64,000 nucleotides of DNA, from NCBI RefSeq assembly GCF_964204645.1, contig NC_134028.1, positions 1,550,001 through 1,614,000 on the forward strand, given 5' to 3'. How positions within the stretch are numbered: position 1 is the first letter of the stretch; the number at the start of each line of letters is the position of its first letter. Source of the DNA: Tubulanus polymorphus. Its lineage: Eukaryota > Nemertea > Palaeonemertea > Tubulaniformes > Tubulanidae. Of this stretch, positions 5,642-55,147 are shown one piece after another. The notes under the pieces are model-generated. The model had not been told where the DNA came from, made no database searches, and saw only the letters and a list, made by a program, of their open reading frames with translations. The position numbers and the translations under genes are program-made.

Positions 5642-5830
5642 CTTGTAACTGTAACCTGCACGCCAGACAGTGTCGCTTCAATCCGGAATTATACAAACTG
5701 TCTGGCAACAAGAGTGGTGGGGTATGTTTAAAGTGTAGACATGACACTGCCGGGCGCAATTGCCACTACTGTAAACAGGGCTTTTATAGGGACCCCACAA
5801 AGCCTCTGACAGACCGCAAGGTCTGCAAAG
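5642..5830 (+). CDS. Netrin alternative LE2 exon, copy a
   Basis: 189-nt exon (63 codons, phase 1 to 1) encoding a complete LE2 module starting (A)[13 protein letters not shown] and ending RKVCK. Flanked by a ...ctttcag acceptor and a gtagga donor. It shares 49 of 63 residues with copy b and is exactly the same length. Differences cluster at charged or surface positions, for example NKSGG here against RKSGG in b, HDTAG against HNTAG, and CKQG against CVEG. All cysteines are kept, so both modules should fold. Confidence 0.93.
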
Positions 5831-8800
5831 GTAGGAAAACCATTTTACATTTTATTACAACTCTTTTTTATTTACAGCTTGTAACTGCAACTTGCATGCT
5901 CGAAATTGCCGGTTCAATACAGAGCTCTTCCTGCTCTCGGGGCGAAAAAGTGGCGGAGTTTGTCTTAAATGCAAGCATAATACGGCCGGTCGCCACTGTC
6001 ACTACTGTGTAGAGGGATATTACCGCGATCCTACTAAACCCATCACTCACAGAAAAGCTTGCAAAGGTAGGACGAATATTCCTTACAATACGCACCATCA
6101 ACCCAACCGCTCGCGACGATCCGTTTTTTATTCCTCTCTCCTCCGCTCTGTCCCAAGCGATCGATTTGTTTTCCCATCTTGCGGATGTGTTGCTTTTATC
6201 TCTGCATCTCTCTATATCTTATCGGTTATCAAGTATAGATAGCTATTATCGATGTTGTCCTAGGTGTTCGCCAACCTCTGTAGAGAAAGGCTCTTATAAT
6301 CTTACTTACATTTCGTCAACCGACAGAATCTTCACGTAGAGAACCCAGCAAGGTTTCGCCACGTTCACTCGACTCTACTTTACACTTTGGCTGTTTGCCG
6401 ATTACCTGGATAGGTTTTTTATCTTCGAAAATAATTGAATCATTGAGATGGACCCATTGTCGGGAGAGGCAATAATCATCATCTTTACGTAGGTTCCGGT
6501 TCAACAACAAGCGTTTTGAGTACGCCTTTCGTATTTTCCGATAACACACTCGGCGAGCGTGCATATCCCCGTATCTAATTCCTGCGCGTTCTTTGATAGA
6601 AATTGCAACGTTCATTACGTAAATGATAAGCGCAGGTGAGCGGTTCACCTCTGACCCAGACAATTATTTTAGCGTGAAAACGTGGTAGGCGGTATATGAG
6701 TTAAAAACGTGCACTGGCGCAGTTTTCTGATGACGAATTTACAGAGTTGCAAAAAAAGTCAGTTAGTGTTAATACGTTCTTCGAGTATAAGGAGAGATGG
6801 TGGCGGCTTAGAATTCACGTGATGGATGAAATGACTCTTTTCTCGCCGTTGGAAATACTTCATGTATTTTCTCAACTCATACGAATTTATTTCAAATTTA
6901 TTCACTTCTGCAGCTTTCAAATGGAAAATTATGATCTCCAATCCTGGACAAGCGTCCGATGATTAAATCTTACACAGTTAGGATTAAGTGTAGGTATAAC
7001 CATTTAGGATCTGCTGCATAGAAAGATCGTCGGAGCAACTAATGAAGCTAACCACCTAATTATATTGTCCTGTTGTCCTTGTTTCCACCGGGGTTTTGAT
7101 TGGATAGTTTTCGTCCGACAAATTAAGAGATCTCGTACGCGGTATAGACTGGTGCGTCGAGATGGCGACCTTGACATTGGCGTATGTACGAGAGCTTTGA
7201 TGAACTATCGGCTGGCCAGGTCATTATCCGACGATTTAATTATCTACATCGAAAGTGTGGTGTGTTAACTTCGTTACGTGTGAGAAGTGGCGGAAAACGT
7301 GTCTACAAGACGTAGAACTACATCAGCTCAGATGGAGAACGTTTCAGTCGACGGCTCGGAAGATAAATCATTCAAATAGGTCTAGAGCTCATCAAAAACC
7401 CGCGCGGCGCATTTATTTCAATCTCTACCTTGCGCTTAACGTGTATACTCGACGAGTTAAAAACGTGGAAACGGCACTAATGAGTTATTGGGTTCAACTT
7501 GGTATCGAAAATAAAACGGAAATATTGTCTATAAGTGAACAATGTCAAGGTTATTGGATATCAGCCCTGTGTAAACCCCCGTGGTTCAAAGATCAATCGT
7601 GGAATATCCCAAAAAAATACCAAGATCTCATCGCTTCCGATACTTGATTCGTCGATACTTTTCATATAGAATTTTGGAACTTGTTTTCATATCGCCATAA
7701 ACTTTATCGGCGGCATCTCCTCATCAAAATGAACTTATCGCCGCCTTGAATAAACCAATCAGCGAGTTATACCCGTTCGAATGAGGTTTCGATACAGTAT
7801 CTTCTTCGTTCTAGGTTCCCCGTTTAAATTTCCGATTCAGTCAATGCACCGGATTTCGCGTTCATCAGTTCAAAAGTAATGCATTTTGTGGATTTCTGTT
7901 AACGCTATCATCGGCAAGCAATTATTGAATAACGGAACCAATTTTCACGTCGAACGAAGCGATAGCTTACGGCGAGACGTTACTTCAACCATATCTTCTC
8001 GCACTTTCTCTTCTCTCTCTCCCTCTCTCTCTCTCTCTTTATACGCTTCAGCTGATGTGATCACACGATCCGATGCAGTTTTACCAAGTTTCTTGCCACC
8101 GGCAACAGATATATTCCTAAAGACCGGACTTGTGTCCAATTCCCTGCTGAAGACATTCGTTCGTCGTCATTCAATCAGAAATTCTCATCTTTCGCAAGCT
8201 TGTTCCGCGGGTTAATTGCATTTTCATTCTTATGTATAGGTTTTTTTCGTACCTTCTTGCTTCCGCGTTAGGACGCTATCCGATTGACACGAACCAATCA
8301 GCGCTCTTCTACGAAATATAAAATTCAAACCCTATCCATATGAAAGATTACCCCGAAAAAGGAATGAGTCGTAAATAAGGTTCGTTCCGAGAAATCGCGA
8401 CAATTTGCTGTCGTTTTTATGCCTACTTATATAAGGTCTGCTATAACGAGAATTTTCATATGCACGGAGGAGTTTGGTTTTCCTATACTCGGAGGGGATA
8501 CGAGATCAGACAACTTTATCACACATGAGAACACCCGTTTGATATCTTCTGGTTCACATGAAACGCGAATTTCCAATATCGAACTGCAGGGGTATTCATG
8601 TGCGGGGACAGTTTACATATAAACAGCGTTCAGGCAGACTCATATCTAGCGTAAGAGTGACTATTACTAGGCAAATAAATTTCCTGTTTCGCTGTTTCGA
8701 TGAATAACGATCGCCGCGCTATTTCCTATGTTCATCGATAAATATCTGATAAATCGTCGGCAAGCGAAGGAAACGATCTGTCTCATCTACCTATCGGCGA

Positions 8801-21258: not shown

Positions 21259-22029
21259 AGTGGAAGCTTTCTTCAACTTCGAGTGGGTGACTTCTGGATT
21301 GGAGTCAGAGATAGGTGACGTTAGTAACCTGGTAACCTGCTACTAGTGGCTGGAATTGGGAGATAAGATAGGCATTTAATTTGGCCTAATCAATACTAAA
21401 ATAGAAGTTGCAATAACTTGCAAAGTGATTAAGACGACGTGTGTCCATGATCTGATTTGATTTATTGTGAAAAAAAGATATACCGTAAAAACTGCACTGA
21501 ATAAACGACGAATGTTCCAATCTTAATTCATTTATTGGCAAAACTGTTTAGCAGCGGGTGTACGTGTTCCTAGAGATATATTTACCCTACACGAAGTTTG
21601 GAGTTTTCTGGGAATTTTTGGAGCTGGTGTTTTCTAATTTCGGGATTCGAGCCTGATTATTGCGACCAATTCAATTCAATAGTGTGGAGCGCGTGGTTCG
21701 AATTCCGGCATGGCGGGGCGCTGCTGTAATATTATTATGTTTTAGATAGATTTTAAACGGTGCTAGTTAGAAAATGGACCATTTTAAGAACGTGACCACC
21801 TAAATGTTTAGTTGCCCCGCGGTACTCCTGCCGGGAGGGCTCTTGTCGTTACACGCGTGGGTAGCCAGTGACTCGCTCATCGGGACCCTCCTCTTTCCTC
21901 GCACCACAACTTTACCGATCACATGACGGGAAGTGTTTACTTTTATTACATGCAAACGCAGGAAAAGTTCGCAAGTTTTCACATGAAGTTGAGTTGGCAG
22001 TGGTTCGGGTGTGATTGAGTAGCGGCACA
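21259..22029. promoter_or_regulatory. Shared head-to-head promoter region of syntaxin-8 and Fringe
   Basis: The two start codons are 771 bp apart on opposite strands, so both promoters and 5' UTRs must fit here. The interval is less AT-rich near 21700-21730 and 21815-21900. Possible sites are gcatggcgg (YY1-like), tcacatgac (E-box-like) and an adjacent gggaagtg (ETS-like) near 21920. No TATA box is evident at a convincing place. Function is inferred from gene arrangement only. Confidence 0.5.
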
Positions 22030-25000
22030 ATGCGTCATAGGTTGAACAAGATAATTCGATTGACAATTAGCGTCGTTTCTATGATGTGCTGTTTATTAAT
22101 AGTTGCGCAAGTTGGAAATCTGGAGGAATCTGATAATAATAATTTACGATTGATTATCGATCGCTCGGGGGCTGGAATACCCGAGACTATCGTTAAGAAA
22201 ACCGTCAGTGAAAATCATGATGACAGCTCGTATAGGAATTTCGTCCGTCGAACTTTACAAAAAACGGAGCGAAACGGCACGAAGCTGTATTATTACGTTA
22301 AAGTGAGAAGAAAAATACCAGCAGCGGCTAAACTTCGTCTCGACCATCCGAACAACCGCATTCCTCTGACAGCTACCACCAGACCGACAGAAATATCGGA
22401 TTTATTCATCAGTGTGAAAACGACTAAGAAATATCACCGAGAACGTTTAGATGTCATATTGAATACTTGGTTTAAACTCGCTAGAGAACAGGTAGGCAGG
22501 CTATAATAACCTACAAAAATTACCGTAATTTCTATAAAATAGAATAATTGGGTCTCTGATTATAGTGGTATTCTAGTATGTATGTATGTATGCCCTACTC
22601 TACTGGTGGCGCGTAATGTTCTAGGGTTTTAGTGCTAGAACTGTTATTGTGAAAAACTATGACAATCAGGCGTTAGTTAATAGTAGGACACTATATAATG
22701 AGGAATGTTGTGAATATCATTATTAACGGTTTAACAACTGTAGACCTTTTATTATAGTGAGACAATGTAATTGGTATCTAAATTATTGTCAATTGATTTA
22801 ATGAGAGAAACAGAATTTCCAGTCGTTTCTCGTGACTAGCGATTCACAGATAAAACGACTATAACTTTAGGCAATGTCAGTAAAGATATGAATAGCATAC
22901 ACTGCGTAAACAAATTTTCAAAAACTTGAATCTTCTCGTACACTGCCCCTGCTGGCAATAGCTCTATATATTTTCAATGATAATTCACGCTCTATTCTTA
23001 ACGTCTTATTTCGAGTTTCGTTTGAGCTAAAAATAAGCGTTCTAACCGCCGACCGACCGGTACCTGTGTGGGAAGCTGGCTAGTCTCATTGTACCATAAA
23101 AAAACGTCTTAGCCTACATTGTGACACATCTTGTATCGAAAACTATTCTTTCCCTTTTCAATAGAAGCCTTTTCTGATTTTGCACCTGCATCTTTATTCA
23201 ACGACTCCCAATTCATGTCGGCGCCGTGCGATATATTTTTAACCGTTTAAAATTTTAGGTCAGAGACCGTGATTTGAAAAACTTCTTTTCTTCGCGCGAT
23301 GCAACAGGTCTGTGAGCATTTCTCACCCCGATCAGAATGAAAATTAACTACATTTATCTGACATCAGAAATTACTATTATTTTTGCCACACAGTCAATTT
23401 CGATTAGACTTGTTTTTATAACTGGTCCCCTCTTGTTGATTCAGCAGTTTACCGTTAAGTATATATAAACATTGCTATGTTGCTCTGGTCTCTGCGCCTT
23501 CGAGTGTTTTTTGAAGATATGATTTCACTGGAAACACATACAAATAACGCGCGCACCAACTCGATCAAGGTAGAGAATACCACGCCATGCTTAACATTGT
23601 CTGACATCATTAAATGGCCCAGTTCCCACAGACAGCTACAAACATCAGCGCTGAGTCTAGTTCTATTATCAAAATGATCAGATTTTAGGGCCCATAACTT
23701 TCTTGGAAATATGATTTTAAAGTTTTATAAAATAAGCTGAGAATATCGATGTCAGAGTTACCGTTTCTGATAGGTATCGAAGGAAGCTTCATTTTTTGTC
23801 AAATATCTGGGAAATATAGATGCCGGGCAGGTGTTCGACAGTAGTTCAGCTGCGGGACACCCTGAGGTCACACGAGAAATTCCAACGGTTGGTTACAATC
23901 GCAAAAAACCACTTATCTGTGTGTGGTGCTATGCTATGAAAAACTCGTTTTGAATAAATAGTGCGAGGATTGCCTATTATAGTTTTGAGGATCCTTCTTA
24001 TCCTTATCGTATGAATTATCAGTTGTCAAGTGTGTTGACACTTGTCATATCTGATTCACAATTATTGTTGCTAAGGGCTTCGTCATTTATCGGTTAGAGA
24101 GGCAGTTTCCCTTTTTCTCATGAATAGACCTGCCCAGCGTATCACAGATGATCTTCAAATACTCAAACTGTTTCTGTGTACTTTTTGGTTGAAGGGCCCT
24201 GATGACCGCATTCATAGTTTGGATAAATGATCGGAACCATATTGAAAGAATGTTATGTTTTTATATTTTGTAGACACATTTCTTCACAGACTCTGATGAT
24301 CATGAATACCAAATGAAAACAAGTAAGCTAATCATTAGTCTATCAATGTCTTTAGAATGGAAGTTGCCAGTTGATCTTGTAAGGATAAAATACTGCTTAT
24401 ACAGTGGAACCTCGTGACGATTTATCAGTTATTACAAACCTAGAATTTCTCTCCTAATATGACAATTTTAATCATTTCAAAATGGATACGACAAACTATC
24501 GGTAAAAACAATAGATTTGCTGGTCTCGTGAAGTTTGGTGTTGTAAGAAGTGAAGTTTGGTGTTGTAACAAGCCACCGCTGTATTATGTGTGTATTTACT
24601 GCATCTATAGCAGAAATCTACATTTTGATGGGGGATAAAATGAACCACTGTGAGGAAGATACTGTATGGGAAAAAGTTCCCACAGCCACTCACTACCGGG
24701 GGGGGGGGGGGGGATCGGTGATCTATAACAAACTGATAGCAGGTAAAAACTGTGAAACAGATAAACAATGATTCACGACTAGAAACATTGAGGCTTTTAT
24801 TTCACTGATTTGGGAAACTTAGTCATTTATTTGTACTAATCTCATCCGAGTTTTCAAACAAACCGATAAAAAACCAGGAAAAAGTTGATAGCTTATTCGG
24901 CAGGCTATACAAATTTCCATGACTGAACTATTTACCAATAGGAAAATGTAGTACCAGACGAAAATAGTTTGTCCTAGTTTTTTTTGGGCACTCTACACGT

Positions 25001-44262: not shown

Positions 44263-47200
44263 TCACACGCGCGTACTTTGAGTCGTCGTCGATGACGAGG
44301 ATTCCGATTTGATTTTGACAGTTTTCGGTGGTTCGGTCGCGTCGACCGGCGGCGACACATCGGTCGTCGACAGGCAAGACGTCGACGACGACGGCTGCAT
44401 ATCGTGTTGACTCGATGACGAGTCGATTACGTCGTGTTGTTGCAAGTCCAGTTCGGTATCGGAATCGACGTTTGAATTGTGACGACTGGAATTTAAAGGA
44501 CTACTCGATTCGGGCAAATCGGTGTCGTTCGTAGAGTCGGCCTTCGCGATGTTTGTCATGTTCATTTCGTCGAAGCTGTCCGGACCTTCGGCGTCTTCTA
44601 AATCGTCACTGACTCCGTCGTCGTCCTCATCCGTTAAAAATCGTATACATTTTTTCTTCCGCCTGAAACAAAAAAATGACGAGGAAAAGATTTAATTTTT
44701 TGACAATCGCGGAAGCGCGGCGCGTATTCGACGCGATGAATAGAAGGTAAACATATGATTAATATAAGTTGAAAGAAAAAATTCGGGAAACTGATGAAAC
44801 AGAGCTGCCAACCACTGGAAATATTAAAGTAGAATGTTTTAAGGAACATTAAAAATGGACTGCAAGAAGAAAGAACTAAATGATCAAATTAACCAGTAAG
44901 GTTCTTAGGCAATGACTTTCTATTTCAGAATTTTTTTGCACCTCATTTCGTAGAAGTTGTTCTTTCAAAATTTTAGTGTTGCTTTATAATCAATATATCA
45001 TAGTACAACAACAGAATCCACGTAGAAATAAGGTCCACGACTTCAATATTCTCATAGTCATACATTTCAATATTATCAAAGATTTTTATTCAATGGAAAT
45101 GAATATATTTCTCAATGAATTCTGATGTTACATCTGTAATATATTACAGTACATGATGTTCAATAAAAACTTCATGGCAATCGCTACAGCAAAGCAATGT
45201 AGGATTGATACCTACATATTATTGATATCATTACAAATAATCGTATCCTATGTAATATTTATATATATATAAATATGGGTAATGTTAGCAACTGGAAAAG
45301 AATCATAATATTTGATTATCAACAATAATATATAGTTTGATGATAAAATATTCATTGGTTTCCATTGGTCGACCTAAAACTGAATTGAAATGTCGGTTGA
45401 ATTGCTCATAAAACTGCCACCAGGTTAAACAAGTTTGCTGATTATCATTTGAAGGTCAATGCGGAGGCAGGCGTAATTATGATACGGTCAACATAAAGGC
45501 TCGTGCGGCGTGCGCCGACTATTTCTGCGAATTAAACTCCCAGTCATTTTCATCTTTTGTTTTCGCGAATCAGACACGTATTTTTTTATGCGAACCATGA
45601 TGCAATTTGCGCTGAAACACGGACCTTTTGAACTGGGGAGCCTTTACAGTGCCGACATGTGATAATTAACTTTCTTTAGCCCGATATGTAGCGAACTGAA
45701 ATCGTAAGCCATCTCTCATCGATGTACTGATGTGGAAGGCGGGTGTTTTGATGCCATGCAGCCCCGACTTTTATTCTAATTCAGTGAAATGAAGCTGCTA
45801 TAATCACAGTTACATTATAAGAATATGAAATCAATATTGTATGCATACCCATGTGGGATCAGAAAGTCTTACTGCATTAAAAAGCTTTGATAATCTATCG
45901 CGGAGAAGTTCGCCACGAGCTACGGTGATTTTGAAGCTAATCTCGCAAGTTAGGACGACGTGTTTGCGACCGTAATCATCTCTTTTATGTCGGGAATGGA
46001 TTAGAACCCGTTTGTGTGACCCGTGGTTATAATACATGACACGACACTCAAATGTTGTCATCGCGATATTTTGTGATCAAAAGCCATCGGACGCCTCTAT
46101 CAATCTCGGGCGAAGACGCGTTAATCCGAAAGCAGATATTTTCATAAATACATTTCAACTATTCGCGTAGTGAATTACAAATTCAAATATGACAATATGA
46201 CGAATACACTGAAAGCTTACACTTAACAACAACATGCTTAACTGCATAATAAACATTAACAATTATACAACAATAAATATGCACGTTTCAATTTGCTTGA
46301 AAAATGACTGATAGTTTTTATTCTTAATGAATGTGTCCTATGAATATCTATTATCACTAGTGAACCAAGCTACTTGTATTAGATACATTTAAACCCCCTC
46401 CCTACAGAACTAACTTATATGCTAAGCATGATATTTCAAGATAAATCATACTGTTATATTTCTTATGAATGATATTCAGCGAAAATTGCTCATAGAGGGA
46501 TTTAAAAGAGAGTCACTGAATAGAAGGGCAGGAGATGGATCAGATTTCAGGTGATTGATGTACCTGTCGATAATTAATATGATAATAATTATTATTTTAT
46601 TATTGTTCATTATCCAAATAAACGTCAAGTATTAAGAATAAATACATTATGAAAATTATAACGAATAAAATGAAATACGCATGCAAAAATGATATACGAT
46701 ATATGATATGATATATGATCATCAACTGCTGTCTATAGAGTAAGTAATAATAATAATAATAATGATATCATTATTATCATTACGAAGGATAATATTATCA
46801 TTATCATCATCATCATCATTATCATTATTAATATCGAATTATCGTATTAATAATAAGAAGTGTTTACAACGATATACGGTGACGAACATGAGAACGACAT
46901 GAGTAAAAAAAATAAAGTGTGATACCCGGCGACAGTGGATGACGAAATATATGAAAATAATAATGACAATAATAACAACAACAGGTAGAGGCATGATCAT
47001 GCTGCGAAAAACGATCCCCATCTACCTGTCTCATAGATCAGTCGTCGTAACCTGATTCTCATCTAGGACCAAATTTGTGCTAGTCTCACTTGAGTTTTCA
47101 TGCACATAAGATCTGAAATAGAACAAGAGGCCATTGCAGAAAAGTTGATTGCGGCGCCGACCGGCACGGCACTGCTGCTACGGCGCAGGCGTGTGTCCGC

Positions 47201-49574
47201 AACGGTCGGTGCCATTAATTGATTTGTCTTTCAGTTTGTGGTGGTGGTGGTGGTGGTGGTGGTGAACGGTGCTTTTGGCGGATAGATACGAATTGACGAG
47301 CGACGAGGTCGTGTGGAGACACACGCTTCGATCGGCTTCAATTCGTTGGGTGAAATTGCTGCGTTCGTCACGTGGTGACCGACAAGCATGCGTCTGAAAA
47401 TTAACGCAAATCGCATTTCTCTCTCTTTCTGTGTGCGGTTTTATTTGTTTTTGGTTTTTCACGGCACATAAACACTGAGACAGTAGAAAGAGATGAAGAT
47501 GGTGAAATAAAGATACTACTAATACTAAACAGTGAAACGATGGTGTGACAAAAATGACAGATGGTGAAAAAAAGGCTCAAGATATTTCTATGCTTACCAA
47601 TAGAATTTCAAAGAATTTAACCGTTTAGTTTTCAGGCCCAACAATAGTTGGACTTCACGACTATCACGGAATCTGATAATCAGTACTAGCTTCATGTAAA
47701 TACTAGCTAAGAATATCATTGATAAAAAGAACAGATATCAGGGTCTATCCATCATCTTAATGAACTAGTATATCTTCCAACCTTTTTTAAGTGAAAGAAC
47801 ATCTTTTGGACCAGCAAACGTAAAGGTTTTTAGATTCGAGAAAATCAGCACAGTTGTTAAGATTTATGATTTACCGGTATTAACAGGTCCACAGATGAAT
47901 TGCACATCGATTGAACACGATAGAAAAACCATGTTAAACTAAGCGTTCAGTTGATGATCCGGGCAGGAATGAAAATATCACGGAAAAAGGGTTTAAAGAA
48001 TCGAAGGTAACTGGGAAAACGTAGTGAAGGAAGCACATGCAGTCTCAAAGAATAAGCAGTACAGAGGTTTCCGATAAAATCACGATCGACTTAACCTCGA
48101 TATATAAAGTATAAATCCAATTTAAAAACATAGTAATAATAATAATATCAAAATCAATTAAAAAATAGACCGATGATGACTTCGTTCATTATTTTCTCGT
48201 TATAGAACCTTAAACTTTTCTGCATTAGCCCCCATCACGTGCTAAAGACAAGCTGATTACTATTTTACTGTCATGCAGATGTTTTATCGAATATAGAACG
48301 TTCATTAAAAACCAATTATAATCAATCAGCTTGTCTTCGATATATACATTATATATATACACACAAATATATGATAACACTTTCCAGACTAGTAGCACTG
48401 CGCGTTTTAGGAGCGAACGCTCGGCCATCTTCGATCTTCGGTCGATCACGTGAGAACACGAAGAACAATCGGTTATTTACTACACAAAAAGTGATGACAC
48501 GACACATAACGCGGTACACAATTCCAGTACATGCAGTGCTGCCAGTCCCGACTGAATGAATCGACATACAAAGCTTGTAAAAATTGAGCGCAAACAAATA
48601 AATGAATAGAAAATAAGATTTCATCTATCGAGTATTACTGGAATAAGCAAAAAGCTGTGTGATCCTTACCTACACGGTTTACACCACTGACTTTGATGAT
48701 CTACCCCAAAGCGTGCTCGACATTTCTTAGGATTTGAACAATCTGAAACGAGCAAGATTGCACAATACTGTTTGTTGCAATGTTTGCCAAAAGTTCGTTC
48801 TAAATCTATCTTAAACGAATTTACGAATTCGGCTTGAAAGCTTTTAGTTTGTGCTCAATAAGTCGAGTATGTTGGGGAATGACATTGTATCTATAATCTA
48901 ACTAAAATCATCTAAGACCTTTTCGAATTGATTTCTCACAATTTATTATCATGATGAAAAAAGCGAAGACAAAGATTTTTCCCGAGTACAAAATCTTGCT
49001 TCGACCTACTCCAAAACGTAGTGAGATGTAATAAGCTACCAATCAGCATTAAGCGACTACATGTGATAACAAAATGGCTGTACCTCCCACAGGACAATGT
49101 GGAGAATACTATAATTGAGTTGCAACACCCTGCATCGTATTTCAATATCTTAATCAACTGTGGTAAAAATTGTAACAAATCATAAATAAAGGTCAGCACG
49201 TAACGTTGAACAGGGATTGAAACAAGTTTTTAAAATGAATTTCTTCGAAATTTAGTGCCATATCATAGGTTCTTCGGGAAAGAATTCTCATTTTGGATTT
49301 TTTCGTAAGATGCATTTAGAATGTCATCGAAGTTTGGGGCAAATAATCATTGACGGATACACTATACTCATAATTATAACGATGATAATAACATTTATGA
49401 GTGGAACTCGAACTGAAACTACTTGTGAAGTGTGAGGATCATGACACAGGGTTACAATATGCAAGAAGCAAATATACACAAACCAACTTTTCATCACAAT
49501 ATACACAATATCTCATATATACTTCGAAATAAAATTCATTCATAAGTTTCGATATGATCATGCGTAGTTTACAC

Positions 49575-49607
<33 letters not shown>

Positions 49608-52600
49608 TATAACTGATTGTTTATAAATACCTGAGTCTGCGTTCTTGTTTTCACCGGGAGAATCCTTTTTTCTCTTCTTTCGTTTACTGTGACAAGCGTA
49701 GTTATCTCGAGCGCTCCAGCCCGGATATAACTGCATGTGAAGCTCTTTTTCTTTTCGCGCCATCTCGTAATATTTTGCCTGTTCAGACCGGTCTAGCGCG
49801 TGCCACTAGAATAAATATATACGACATTAATAAACCCGAAATCAGTCAAAATCTTTCAACGATCATCATTTCCCTTTCAAACTCTACACATAATTTTGTT
49901 ATTCGATATTATCATCGATTAAACCCTTTTGGGCAAATGAGACTTTTTTCAAAGGTATTAAGTTAATTTCTTCGAGCGTTTTACGGTTTGAATACCGCAA
50001 TAAGCATTTTTAAGACCTTGATACGTTTCGCAATATTCTCGATATTTAAAGATATTTCAAGCGATCTAATAACCATAAGTGACAGCGCTTAATGTAGAAT
50101 TTCAACAAACTGAAACAAATTTAGAATTAAACAATCGCGATGAATATAAAATGAAGTTCTTTTCACTTGGAAAATTGGACTAGAATCAGTCCTGGAAAGG
50201 GCAAACAAATTGAGAGATATCTTTTGGGATATCTTTCCAAAAATAAGTTCATCATGCAGAAAGCAGAGCATCAAAATAAGGCAGCTTTTCTCGAATAAAA
50301 CAATATTGCCAGAAATTGAACCAAGAGGGATGAGCCAATGTTTGTCCAATGTCATCATCTTTTCATATCTTTTTCATTTTTTCTTTTCAATTACTTACTT
50401 TTCGGCCTAAAATTTGATTAATAGCTGCCGATTCTTTGAGTGTGCATTCTGCCACCACTTTTGCTCTTTGCTCTTTCATAAACAGCATAAAAGCATTAAG
50501 AGGTTTCTTGATGTGGGGTTGTTTTTTAGCCGGAGGTTCCGGTTGTTCAATGAGGTCATTACGACCCTGTTCATGTAGAGTAGGATGTCTGAAAATATAT
50601 ATTACGCAATTTATTCAACATAATACACGACGTCATTTCTTACCTTACGACCTAAAATTTGATTAATTGCAGCAGATTCTTTGAGGGTACATTCTGAGAT
50701 CACTTGCGGACGAATCTCCTTCATGAACAACATGAATGCATTTAAGGGCTTCTTTACATAAGGTTTCTTTTTCTCGGACTCGATAGGTCTTTCAACCTGC
50801 AATTCCTGGCAATGTTCAGATTTATCATATAGCCTGAAAAATTATCAGTTTTTGCCACTGAATCCTTTTTCTGATGATTATCACATGAAACTGCCGACCC
50901 AGCCCTAACCCCGCGGGCAGATACGGGCATATCCTGAATCTCATCAAGCGTTAGAATGGCCCACCGAATTTCCTCAAATGCAGAAATTGCATTTCCATGG
51001 ATATCGGATATGCCCCCTTGTTAGAAATACAAGGCCCCTATGGAGTGGTAATGCCATTCCTAGATCGGCCTGTGGATCTAAACCTAATCTTTTAAGTATC
51101 AAACTAAACTAATGAATGGATGGAGAGATACAAGTTATCATAATCAGGGTAGAGCCTAATCGTAATAAAGCATCAATTCGATTCATTTTTATCAATCGAT
51201 TATATTCCTTTTCCATCATTTTCCTCGAAAAGGTTTCTCTATAATGCAAAAGATATTATAGACTTACTCTTTCCAAGAAGCTTCATTCAAATGGGGGTAC
51301 CAGTGGAGTAGATTGTCAGGACTTCTTAAAATATAAAGATTTATAGGAGACAGTTCAGTTAAGAGGAAACTCAAAATAGACAACAATATTTCAGAGACAG
51401 GTCATAAACTATAGAAAATACGATATTAGACACCGAAAGTTAAGAATTCATATTTCAGATTTGTTACTACTGATTGCTTGCTGTAAGCCACGAGTGAGTG
51501 ATAGAAGTTATCCTATGAAATGTTAGATTTTAAAAGAATAGAATTTTTGAAACGAAGTATAAGGGAAAACATCTCTCCATCCAATCATTCGAGGATCTAT
51601 GCTTTTAGAATTGAGGTTTTTACCTTGATTATTACTAATTATGATTAAATATACAAGAATTCTTTGAATTAAACTAAAATTAAATGAAAATCTGGATAAT
51701 TAAATGCACATTGTACAAAGATCAAACAATCTCTAATCTCGCACTGTTTAATACAGAATGACACATGATGAGAGAGAATAAGAGTTTCTCGAAGCTCGGT
51801 TTGATGTTGGAGTCAGATAGGTTACTCCAAGGTTTGATATAAGAATCCGTGTATATTTCAAATCATTGATGAATATCTCATTAAAGTGCTACGACGCATC
51901 TCTTACTAAAAGTTTCGAATTTAGATCTCAATCTTGAATAACTTAAACCACGTTCACACCTCGTTATTTAGAACGTTGTCCGTTCCAAGTCTTAGTCCAT
52001 CTTTTAGAACAGACCAAGATGTCACTCAAGCAAAAACTCTGTTCTAAATTGGTTGTGCCACTTTATAATCGACTGGGGCTGGTTGCATAGTCATGGCTTG
52101 TATTTAAGACCATTCTAAGACCAACTTAGTTCTATAGCCAATCTAACAACTTAATACCAGTCTTAAGATTTAAGACCAATTTTGGACTTAAGTCACAACT
52201 GCGCAACTGGCCCCTGATTTATTAGACCAACGATCAAGGTCTGTTTAAGAATGGAATATTGCTGTGTGCAAATAGAAACAGTGCCAGTCTAGCTGGACCA
52301 GTGATATATCAATGTTTGTGAATGCGCAGCATTGATTTGGTCCGTTCTAAATAGGTCCATTCCAGATAGAGGCCAAATCAGAATGGATTAACTGGCGATC
52401 TAGCGTGAACTTAAGGCTTTAAGATATCCATCTAATGAGTTAATAATATAAACTCAATGTCCCTACGAGACTGAACATATTAAACATACAGTTCAATTAA
52501 TACTTACCGATGATTTTCTTGAGTTTGCGAATGTTGTTGTATATCTTGTTTTGGTCCCGGTGTGACTATAGCCGGATGTGGAATGCCGTGATGCATTCCG

Positions 52601-55147
52601 TGGGGCGGATGAATCAGGCCAGCCGTGTGGTTAAATCGAAGCGCCGCTGAATTCGCCACTAATGGATACGGACCCCGATAACCCGATGTCGTCGCTGGAT
52701 ATGTAGGTGGACCTTGCCTATAAATTCGTAAAGAAAATTAGTTGAAACGAAATTTACCGATATCGACGAAGTAACTTTCAAAACAACCGGGAGGTTGAGC
52801 ATTAGGGTTCCGGAATAAGGTAGGAAATCATTTTCCATTCAGAGCACCCAGAGACCTGGCAAAAAAATTCAATATCCATATTCCAGGCAGTCGATCTCCG
52901 CGAACGGCTTTCAGTATCGAACAAAAACATTTTCAAAGTCGCAACCAATAATCGGTAATCAAGGAAAACCCACAGTTTTACAACCTTTCTTGTATTTCTA
53001 TGTTACAAATCATTCCGTAACTTTTTAGCTAAAAATAAAGCAGTTTATACGGGGGAAATCGGGAACAAAGTACATTTACATAACCGGCTATCGAGTAAAA
53101 TAAAGCCTTGTATTAGAAAGATTAGAATCGGGATACGTAATTGTCTGTGAAGATGATAGTCATTCATATATATTGGAAATTAAAAGTGTTGACGCAATAA
53201 CTGGATGCCTTTAAGGCTATATTCATGTACGCGTTCGAGTGGTATGGGTGTGTTATAGCTTAGTTCTGTCATGTAACACGCACGCAAAAACTTACAGAAT
53301 CTTCGAGAATCAATTGATTTTCTGTTGACGACAAAATTCAACCCTATCCTCGATAGAAAAGTATAGACAAAGAGAAAACCGGGTACTCGCGAGCGCTTAC
53401 AGTCATTTTATAAGTAGTTGCCCGCAGCGAGACATTTACACTAAATTGTTCGACCGACCGATCAAAAAATATGAATCGATGGAAATATGCAGGTAGATTG
53501 CCACAAATAGATAACTATCAAACATGATATGATATAGCGGAACGTCCGAATGTCACCTTCAACTTAAAAATATATTCACAGTTGCTGCCAATAACCTCTA
53601 GAAAGTGCCATCAATCGGTAAACATCATGTATTGGAAAATGTTCACATTAATACCTTCAAATATTACGAGTATATCTAACAACACGTACGCCTGCTTGAT
53701 TCTTCATTCGAAAAAAAAAGAAACAGCATTCAGAGAGGACTATTAGTTTGAAAGTTGCTCTACGTAGCTACCACTGGGCGCAGCCAACACTACAAAATCC
53801 ATTATAAGTTCAAATTGTGTTAGCTATCTACAAAGGTCTGCAGGAGTCAAGTCATCACCTCGACAAAGTCAGGCCATAAATTTGATCACAAGTTTTGCAT
53901 TAATACTTCTAACGGTATGGCTGACGTTTAAGTAAGACGGTAATTTAATGGCTATTACAACCGCAGAAAAGACATTTGATGTGCGAGCTTTGAAGGCATT
54001 TGAAGATAATGCGCCGGGCTGTGATCTCCTGAGAGGCAATGCCATCATGCAGCTGAGACCAACACCGGCCTGCTCGTTGTTAAATGATCTTAATGCCGAC
54101 TGGAAAGTCAAGTCATTAGACCAGTTCTAAGGCGACGCCGCCGGCTCGAGTGCGACTACAATATGTGACCGACGTGTTAGTATTCCACGCTCTCTTTCAA
54201 CGATCAAAAAAGGATTTCGAAAAAAGTTCACTAAATCAAAAAAGTTTTCGTCTAGAAACCTGAAGATCATTAACAATGGAAAGGATTATATGACTGCGGG
54301 GCCACTAACCACATGGCTTTCATCGCTATAAAGTCAACTATTAGAACATATGTCAGTGTGGCTCAAGCCCCAATTCCGAGCCCTTATCGACTGTAGGGAA
54401 ACCACCGGGAATCTGCTGCCCGGCAGCTTCGCGTCATCAGTGATATTGTAACAAATCTTTTTATGAATTTAAGTAGCAGGTGCGAGCGCATTTTCAAAGG
54501 TATCTTCTTTAATGATTTCTGCATGAAATAATGTACATAAACCAGACGAGAAACCATAGAAGAATCATCGTTCAAACGTGAAGAAACAAAGCAACGTCAA
54601 AAAACAACTTACCATTGCACTTGTGAAAATTCTGGACTATACATTGGATGCGTATATTGACTGGGATGTGGAGGGATTGGATACATAGGCGGTCGTGGCA
54701 ACCCTGAAAATATACACAAACAAAACATCGATTTATTATTTTTCATTACATGAAAAATATTTGGGTAAGATCCCTAGAAACACTGTGTAGTCATAGTCAA
54801 GTCAAATACATGATTAGAGACCGGGAAACATGTTTCTGTGTTTCCCTATACGTCATGTATATTGAGTTTTATACTCATGACCATATACAGAATATGAAGA
54901 ACATTTAGCAGCTTTGGTCGAACATATCCGGCAAAAGAGCATCCAAATCAGTAATACGAATTATAATACATAGTAGAATTCATTTCTTCCCTCGCAGAAT
55001 AATAATAGCAACAGTAGTAACAGCAGCAAGAAGCAAGACAGGTCTGAAATTGACTTACACAACACAGTTTAAAGATATTAAACATCAAACGAGATGAAAT
55101 ATTACTACCTATTTGCTACTATTATAATTTGACGGATATGCACTATG

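Follow-up and report, generated by a model that had tools for sequence, protein, structure and literature searches.

Two tandem versions of an HMG-box exon, very probably mutually exclusive, in a TCF gene of the nemertean Tubulanus polymorphus

The TCF locus and its tandem exons

The 64,000-nucleotide (nt) stretch of the Tubulanus polymorphus genome analysed here, hereafter the window (assembly GCF_964204645.1, contig NC_134028.1, positions 1,550,001 to 1,614,000), carries on its minus strand the HMG-box and C-clamp exons of a TCF/LEF gene. In this gene, a linker and the front part of the HMG box are encoded twice, by two adjoining exons, named A and B, which lie between a shared upstream exon (U) and a shared exon (C) for the remainder of the box (Table 1). 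Judged from their sequence, A and B very probably form a mutually exclusive pair that arose by an old tandem duplication, one copy being used per transcript, with a probable steric lock and a frame lock against the wrong joins.

Both exons are bordered by cag on the upstream side and gtaag on the downstream side, and in the rebuilt joins both enter in phase 2 and leave in phase 0. Exon U ends in phase 2 with ...CAT CG/gtaagt (the slash marks the splice site), and exon C starts with ctag/TGG. The 5' edge of U is unfixed, position 52712 having been taken for the rebuilt joins, while an acceptor (TTTATAG) just before 52717 is likelier by eye. Joined as U+A+C or U+B+C, the exons are open across the entire HMG box and score 76.2 and 81.3 bits, respectively, with the Pfam HMG_box profile. 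When both copies are included (U+A+B+C), the reading is ...GRK TSYST followed by a TGA, the sixth codon of B; when both are skipped (U+C), it is CGT GGC ACG CGC TAG, namely ...HRGTR and a stop. As the length of 190 nt equals 1 modulo 3, double use or double skipping shifts the frame automatically. This lock is given by the length and phases of the exon, and there is no need to suppose that it evolved for exclusion.

The original prediction for this locus is borne out on each of these points, that is, the positions, lengths and phases of the two exons, the premature stop after double inclusion and after double skipping, the contrasting helix-1 segments (IRPQVIS in A, QRAKVVA in B), and the presence in both exons of a linker plus the front of the box. 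Its broader statement that only the use of one of the two gives protein is retained as the best reading, favoured by the frame-compatible copies, the purifying selection described below, the finding of no other TCF, and a precedent in the annelid Platynereis dumerilii (PMC5996498). No further copies of the exon were found in the window by tblastn.

Ranked among the splice sites of 71 introns sampled from this genome, the acceptor and donor of A stand at the 63rd and 90th percentiles and those of B at the 63rd and 86th, and the donor of U stands at the 79th. The sites of A and B are thus ordinary to strong, which argues that the copies are not kept apart by weak sites. According to the scheme we propose, tandem duplication of an exon for the linker and the front half of the HMG box would have created the pair. 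U would then be spliced either to A, and A to C with B skipped, or to B with A skipped, and B to C. Transcripts using both exons or neither would undergo a frame shift, stop early and presumably be degraded. The outcome would be two TCF proteins sharing the same beta-catenin-binding and C-clamp parts, and differing in their linkers and helix-1 halves.

Table 1. Features of the TCF locus, in window positions
Feature	Position	Strand	Length	Remarks
Exon U, shared upstream exon	52508..52717	-		Exits in phase 2; donor CG/GTAAGT at 52508
Exon A	50644..50833	-	190 nt	Encodes linker and front of HMG box; helix-1 segment IRPQVIS
A-B intron	50589..50643	-	55 nt	Candidate barrier to A-B splicing
Exon B	50399..50588	-	190 nt	Encodes linker and front of HMG box; helix-1 segment QRAKVVA (canonical type)
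TGCATG, single	50253..50258	-		In the intron that follows B, about 140 nt from its start; weak lead
Exon C	49631..49805	-		Shared remainder of HMG box and basic tail; rebuilt joins
C-clamp first-part exon	48670..48742	-		Joins exon C in frame
Last coding exon	44263..44662	-		Rest of C-clamp and C-terminus to stop

Selection on both copies

Aligned without gaps, A and B are identical at 118 of 189 nt and 38 of 63 residues. Hardly any similarity is left between the linkers. In the last 41 codons, the core, 33 of 41 residues are identical, with 34 of 123 bases differing. Changes in the core affect 22.0 of 25.7 synonymous sites, i.e. saturation, versus 12.0 of 97.3 non-synonymous sites (Fisher p 4e-12), with a non-synonymous divergence (dN) of 0.135. 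When the same number of changes was placed at random in 20,000 trials, a mean of 19.3 and a maximum of 27 residues stayed identical, 33 never being reached, and a stop codon was acquired in 72% of the trials. The final 17 residues are the same in A and B, yet 8.0 of their 11.5 synonymous sites have changed. From these comparisons, the resemblance is not a matter of chance, and saturated synonymous change together with kept residues argues that the duplication is old and that both copies have been retained under selection as protein. The pair thus presents what is expected of mutually exclusive exons, namely, adjoining homologous exons that agree in length and phase, and coding constraint on both copies with plausible splice sites.

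These data also bear on the possibility that one of the two copies, A being the likelier, has fallen silent or is decaying and hardly ever enters a transcript. A is further from canonical TCF and has a proline in helix 1. However, A shows few amino-acid changes against a background of saturated synonymous change, contains no stop and has ordinary-to-strong splice sites, and a decaying copy of that age would not be expected to retain an open frame and 33 of its 41 core residues. We regard a silent copy as very unlikely.

The short intron between the copies

Intron lengths in this genome were sampled in the myosin head, phosphagen kinase, CCT chaperonin and kinesin families, where 71 of 81 junctions tested were accepted, on a score of 4 or more and a length deviation of no more than 4 codons, and 10 were dropped. 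None of the 71 accepted introns is below 70 nt, whereas the A-B intron has 55, a feature to which the original prediction did not refer. The shortest accepted one measures 70 nt, but a near-equal alternative of 85 nt gives the usual kinesin reading, so that its length is probably 85; 25 of the 71 are no longer than 110 nt. By our own arithmetic, the absence of introns under 70 nt puts their share below about 4%, if the sample is random.

The sampling is biased in one respect, since an intron with a length divisible by three can be bridged within a single profile match and thus be missed. Examination of 20 bridged matches (10 of them in detail) yielded 19 further introns, the shortest of 75 nt. 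Seven came from single-intron fits (75-153 nt, with one tie of 90 and 78) and 12 were read by eye (78-201 nt). No intron was read out in three matches of locus L033 or in one of L042, where the intron exceeds the match, nor, in one match of L056, on its 5' side.

Judged from these lengths, the spliceosome of this animal would as a rule work on introns from about 75 nt upwards and be unlikely to join A to B. With 55 nt, the A-B intron would lie below its normal working minimum, and we infer a probable physical block to the joining of A and B, the frame shift acting as a second lock. The same length counts in weighing another proposal, that the double-exon or double-skip transcript is a regulated poison form lowering the TCF level. 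Both forms do stop early, but the stop follows automatically from a 190-nt exon, and the A-B join requires an intron under the sampled minimum of 70 nt to be removed. A poison form of this kind appears very improbable.

RNA structure, regulator signals and points of doubt

Exclusion could also be achieved by competing RNA structures, which are known to make exons exclusive (PMC9013439), or by a tissue-specific splicing factor, the short intron being incidental. The A-B intron can form a hairpin but does not stand out from shuffled sequences (z -1.09, 26 of 200 shuffles as good), and local RNA folding is ordinary (z -0.61 and -1.09). Pairing of this intron with its neighbours, of which the U-A intron was covered over its final 600 nt, is likewise no better than in shuffles (11 of 20 and 9 of 20 as good). 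The single TGCATG downstream of B, which we take to be an RBFOX-type hexamer, speaks weakly for a splicing factor, and one such hexamer per 593 nt is not improbable by chance. A regulator may well pick A or B on top of a steric block. An explanation in which structure or factor replaces that block is considered unlikely, while keeping an appreciable share of the probability.

Several points weigh against exclusion of A and B by intron length and frame. The intron sample comes from four families, includes some tandem paralogues, is non-random and lost 10 of 81 junctions, and introns as short as 55 nt may be spliced elsewhere in the genome. Automatic fits gave pieces of 30-57 nt in five matches (L044, L005, L033, L059 and L039). 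These pieces were set aside as overfits combining several weak sites; by eye, the introns are of 111 and 144 nt in L044, 84 in L005, 78 in L059 and 147 in L039, the L033 piece being left without such a reading. The acceptor of exon C is weak, at the 14th percentile of the sampled introns. Neither RNA pairing nor a regulator signal that would explain the choice between A and B was found in the parts tested.

The other parts of the gene

The closest solved structure for both forms is that of LEF-1 (2lef), with 148.2 bits for B+C. Two features of TCF/LEF genes are found, namely, a LEF-type HMG box and a C-clamp, the latter being in frame over the two downstream exons of Table 1. When the assembly was searched with the B-form HMG region, 11 matches were obtained, three of which are the A, B and C exons (131.7, 96.6 and 71.1 bits), the next scoring 44. 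The sole CTNNB1_binding match in the assembly (C4:1666699-1667031, minus strand, 32.9 bits) has stops inside the match, probably owing to a bridged intron. Lying upstream on the same strand, 52.7 kilobases (kb) past the window end, it would belong to the same TCF gene. This is the only TCF gene found in the assembly, where the lack of a further match is no proof of absence. No TCF relatives were found in the prokaryote and virus contig collections, as expected of such collections.

In a transcript that keeps the intron behind exon C (window 49630-49569, minus strand), the frame would cross a TTA-type repeat (poly-isoleucine) to a stop. A TCF devoid of the C-clamp could possibly result, like isoform X7 as described for Platynereis.

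Differences between the two predicted proteins

The two forms have in common a 13-residue stretch, an Arg two residues beyond and the final 17 residues. Substitutions, given with the residue of B before that of A, are Q/I, A/P, K/Q, V/I and A/S within helix 1, and I/V, H/Y and Q/K just before it. In comparisons with solved HMG boxes, going from B to A lowers the scores with most sequence-specific boxes, namely LEF-1 (136.6 to 133.3), SOX2 (1gt0, 37.6 to 31.8), SRY (9bvd, 37.5 to 30.9) and capicua (6jrp, 49.2 to 46.1). It raises those with several non-specific ones, namely ABF2 (47.6 to 49.7), PMS1 (18.2 to 22.7), HMGB3 (18.2 to 22.3) and HMGB2 (1j3c, 16.9 to 19.8). Exceptions are SOX30, which rises (39.8 to 42.1), NHP1 and Maelstrom, which fall (31.1 to 28.2 and 18.3 to 16.6, respectively), and HMGB1 (5zdz), which is flat (22.8 to 22.4). 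As a lead, these scores hint weakly that helix 1 of A leans towards the HMG boxes that are not sequence-specific. HMGB1 box B and PMS1 have a proline at the same place as that in helix 1 of A, so the A form should still fold. As the original prediction suggested, the two forms might differ in DNA affinity or in their partners.

A more far-reaching proposal is that the pair represents an ancient spiralian device by which one TCF gene provides two Wnt effectors differing in how they read DNA. B would be the canonical form, and the proline-bearing helix 1 of A would relax specificity or alter DNA bending. Splicing, instead of gene duplication, would diversify the Wnt output, the intron being kept below the splicing minimum. 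We offer this only tentatively and consider it improbable as a whole.

Other tandem exons and neighbouring features

A laminin-EGF exon according to Pfam, presumably of a netrin, is present on the plus strand of the window as two tandem copies of 189 nt each (5642-5830 and 5878-6066), with 49 of 63 residues identical and synonymous sites saturated (40.0 of 40.2). The copies are separated by a 47-nt intron, again under the sampled minimum of this genome. They constitute a probable second mutually exclusive pair, which the frame does not lock, the exon lengths being multiples of three. A spacer below the minimum occurs twice within these 64 kb, and such spacers could offer a rule for predicting exclusive exons from the genome alone.

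Elsewhere in the genome, four tandem copies of a myosin heavy chain exon ending in switch-1, of the 'cluster-3' kind, lie hundreds of bases apart (L031, G000:C4:4125126-4126944, minus strand) and point to a spiralian genome. A large cluster of phosphagen kinase exons (G000:C8:12690514-12850169) comprises 37 matches, with tandem copies on both strands. The best match of one phosphagen kinase stretch was a two-domain taurocyamine kinase (4wo8, from Schistosoma), which says nothing on phylum. The assembly gave no COX1 match, and searches for annelid erythrocruorin linker and molluscan hemocyanin domains, run with no positive control, were likewise negative. Within the window, a plus-strand frame at 22015-22506 has a hydrophobic start and a Fringe-like match (PF02434, 45.9 bits).

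Comparison with known systems

Splicing that swaps part of a DNA-binding or dimerising region is familiar from E12/E47, FOXP1 and MEF2, which belong to families other than that of the HMG box. Tandem duplicated exons that swap a short part of a domain, as A and B would, are found in muscle myosin heavy chain (PMC3912159). That case concerns a motor protein and copies hundreds of bases apart, not separated by a sub-minimal intron; 'cluster-3' copies of this kind have been reported in annelids and molluscs (PMC3912159). Vertebrate TCF7L2 and TCF7 share with the present gene the production of TCF splice isoforms, including two alternative C-clamp exons, but the variants described in the accessible part of that account concern alternative starts, central exons and C-termini, with one form devoid of the HMG box, and none swaps part of the box (PMC9303524). 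The same excerpt does not mention a second HMG exon in deuterostome TCF genes. Shrimp isoforms named LvPangolin1/2, cited in PMC8365339, may be relevant.

The closest parallel is Pdu-Tcf of Platynereis dumerilii, whose HMG domain has two alternative exons for its beginning, an arrangement of the same type as A and B. Amplification from cDNA recovered each variant, joined to the same C-clamp, and slightly different DNA binding of the isoforms was proposed by the authors (PMC5996498). The arrangement is therefore not new for TCF genes; the original prediction, which did not know it as general, had allowed for a report in a single species. This description was the only one found of alternative TCF HMG-box exons in a literature search for which most subscription journals were outside reach. 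The sequence is not the same, the variant-specific primers of Pdu-Tcf differing from the best-fitting stretch of A or B at 10 of 21 and 9 of 22 bases. Compared with the linkers of A and B, the peptides encoded by the primers gave p 0.198 or worse in every stop-free frame and are uninformative on orthology.

A single TCF gene is described for most protostomes (PMC5996498), whereas vertebrates have four. The arrangement seen in A and B may be widespread among spiralians. If the splice switch in the HMG box is conserved across them, it would help explain how one gene serves many Wnt outputs, and would offer a clean test of the contribution of helix 1 to the HMG box. The accessible part of the Pdu-Tcf account gives no analysis of spacing, phase or selection and names no exclusion mechanism (PMC5996498). 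To it, the Tubulanus gene adds a probable mechanism of exclusion, evidence of old and constrained copies, and a hint of wide spiralian occurrence. The pair is a good new example of an arrangement reported in a marine worm in 2018, and not a new kind.
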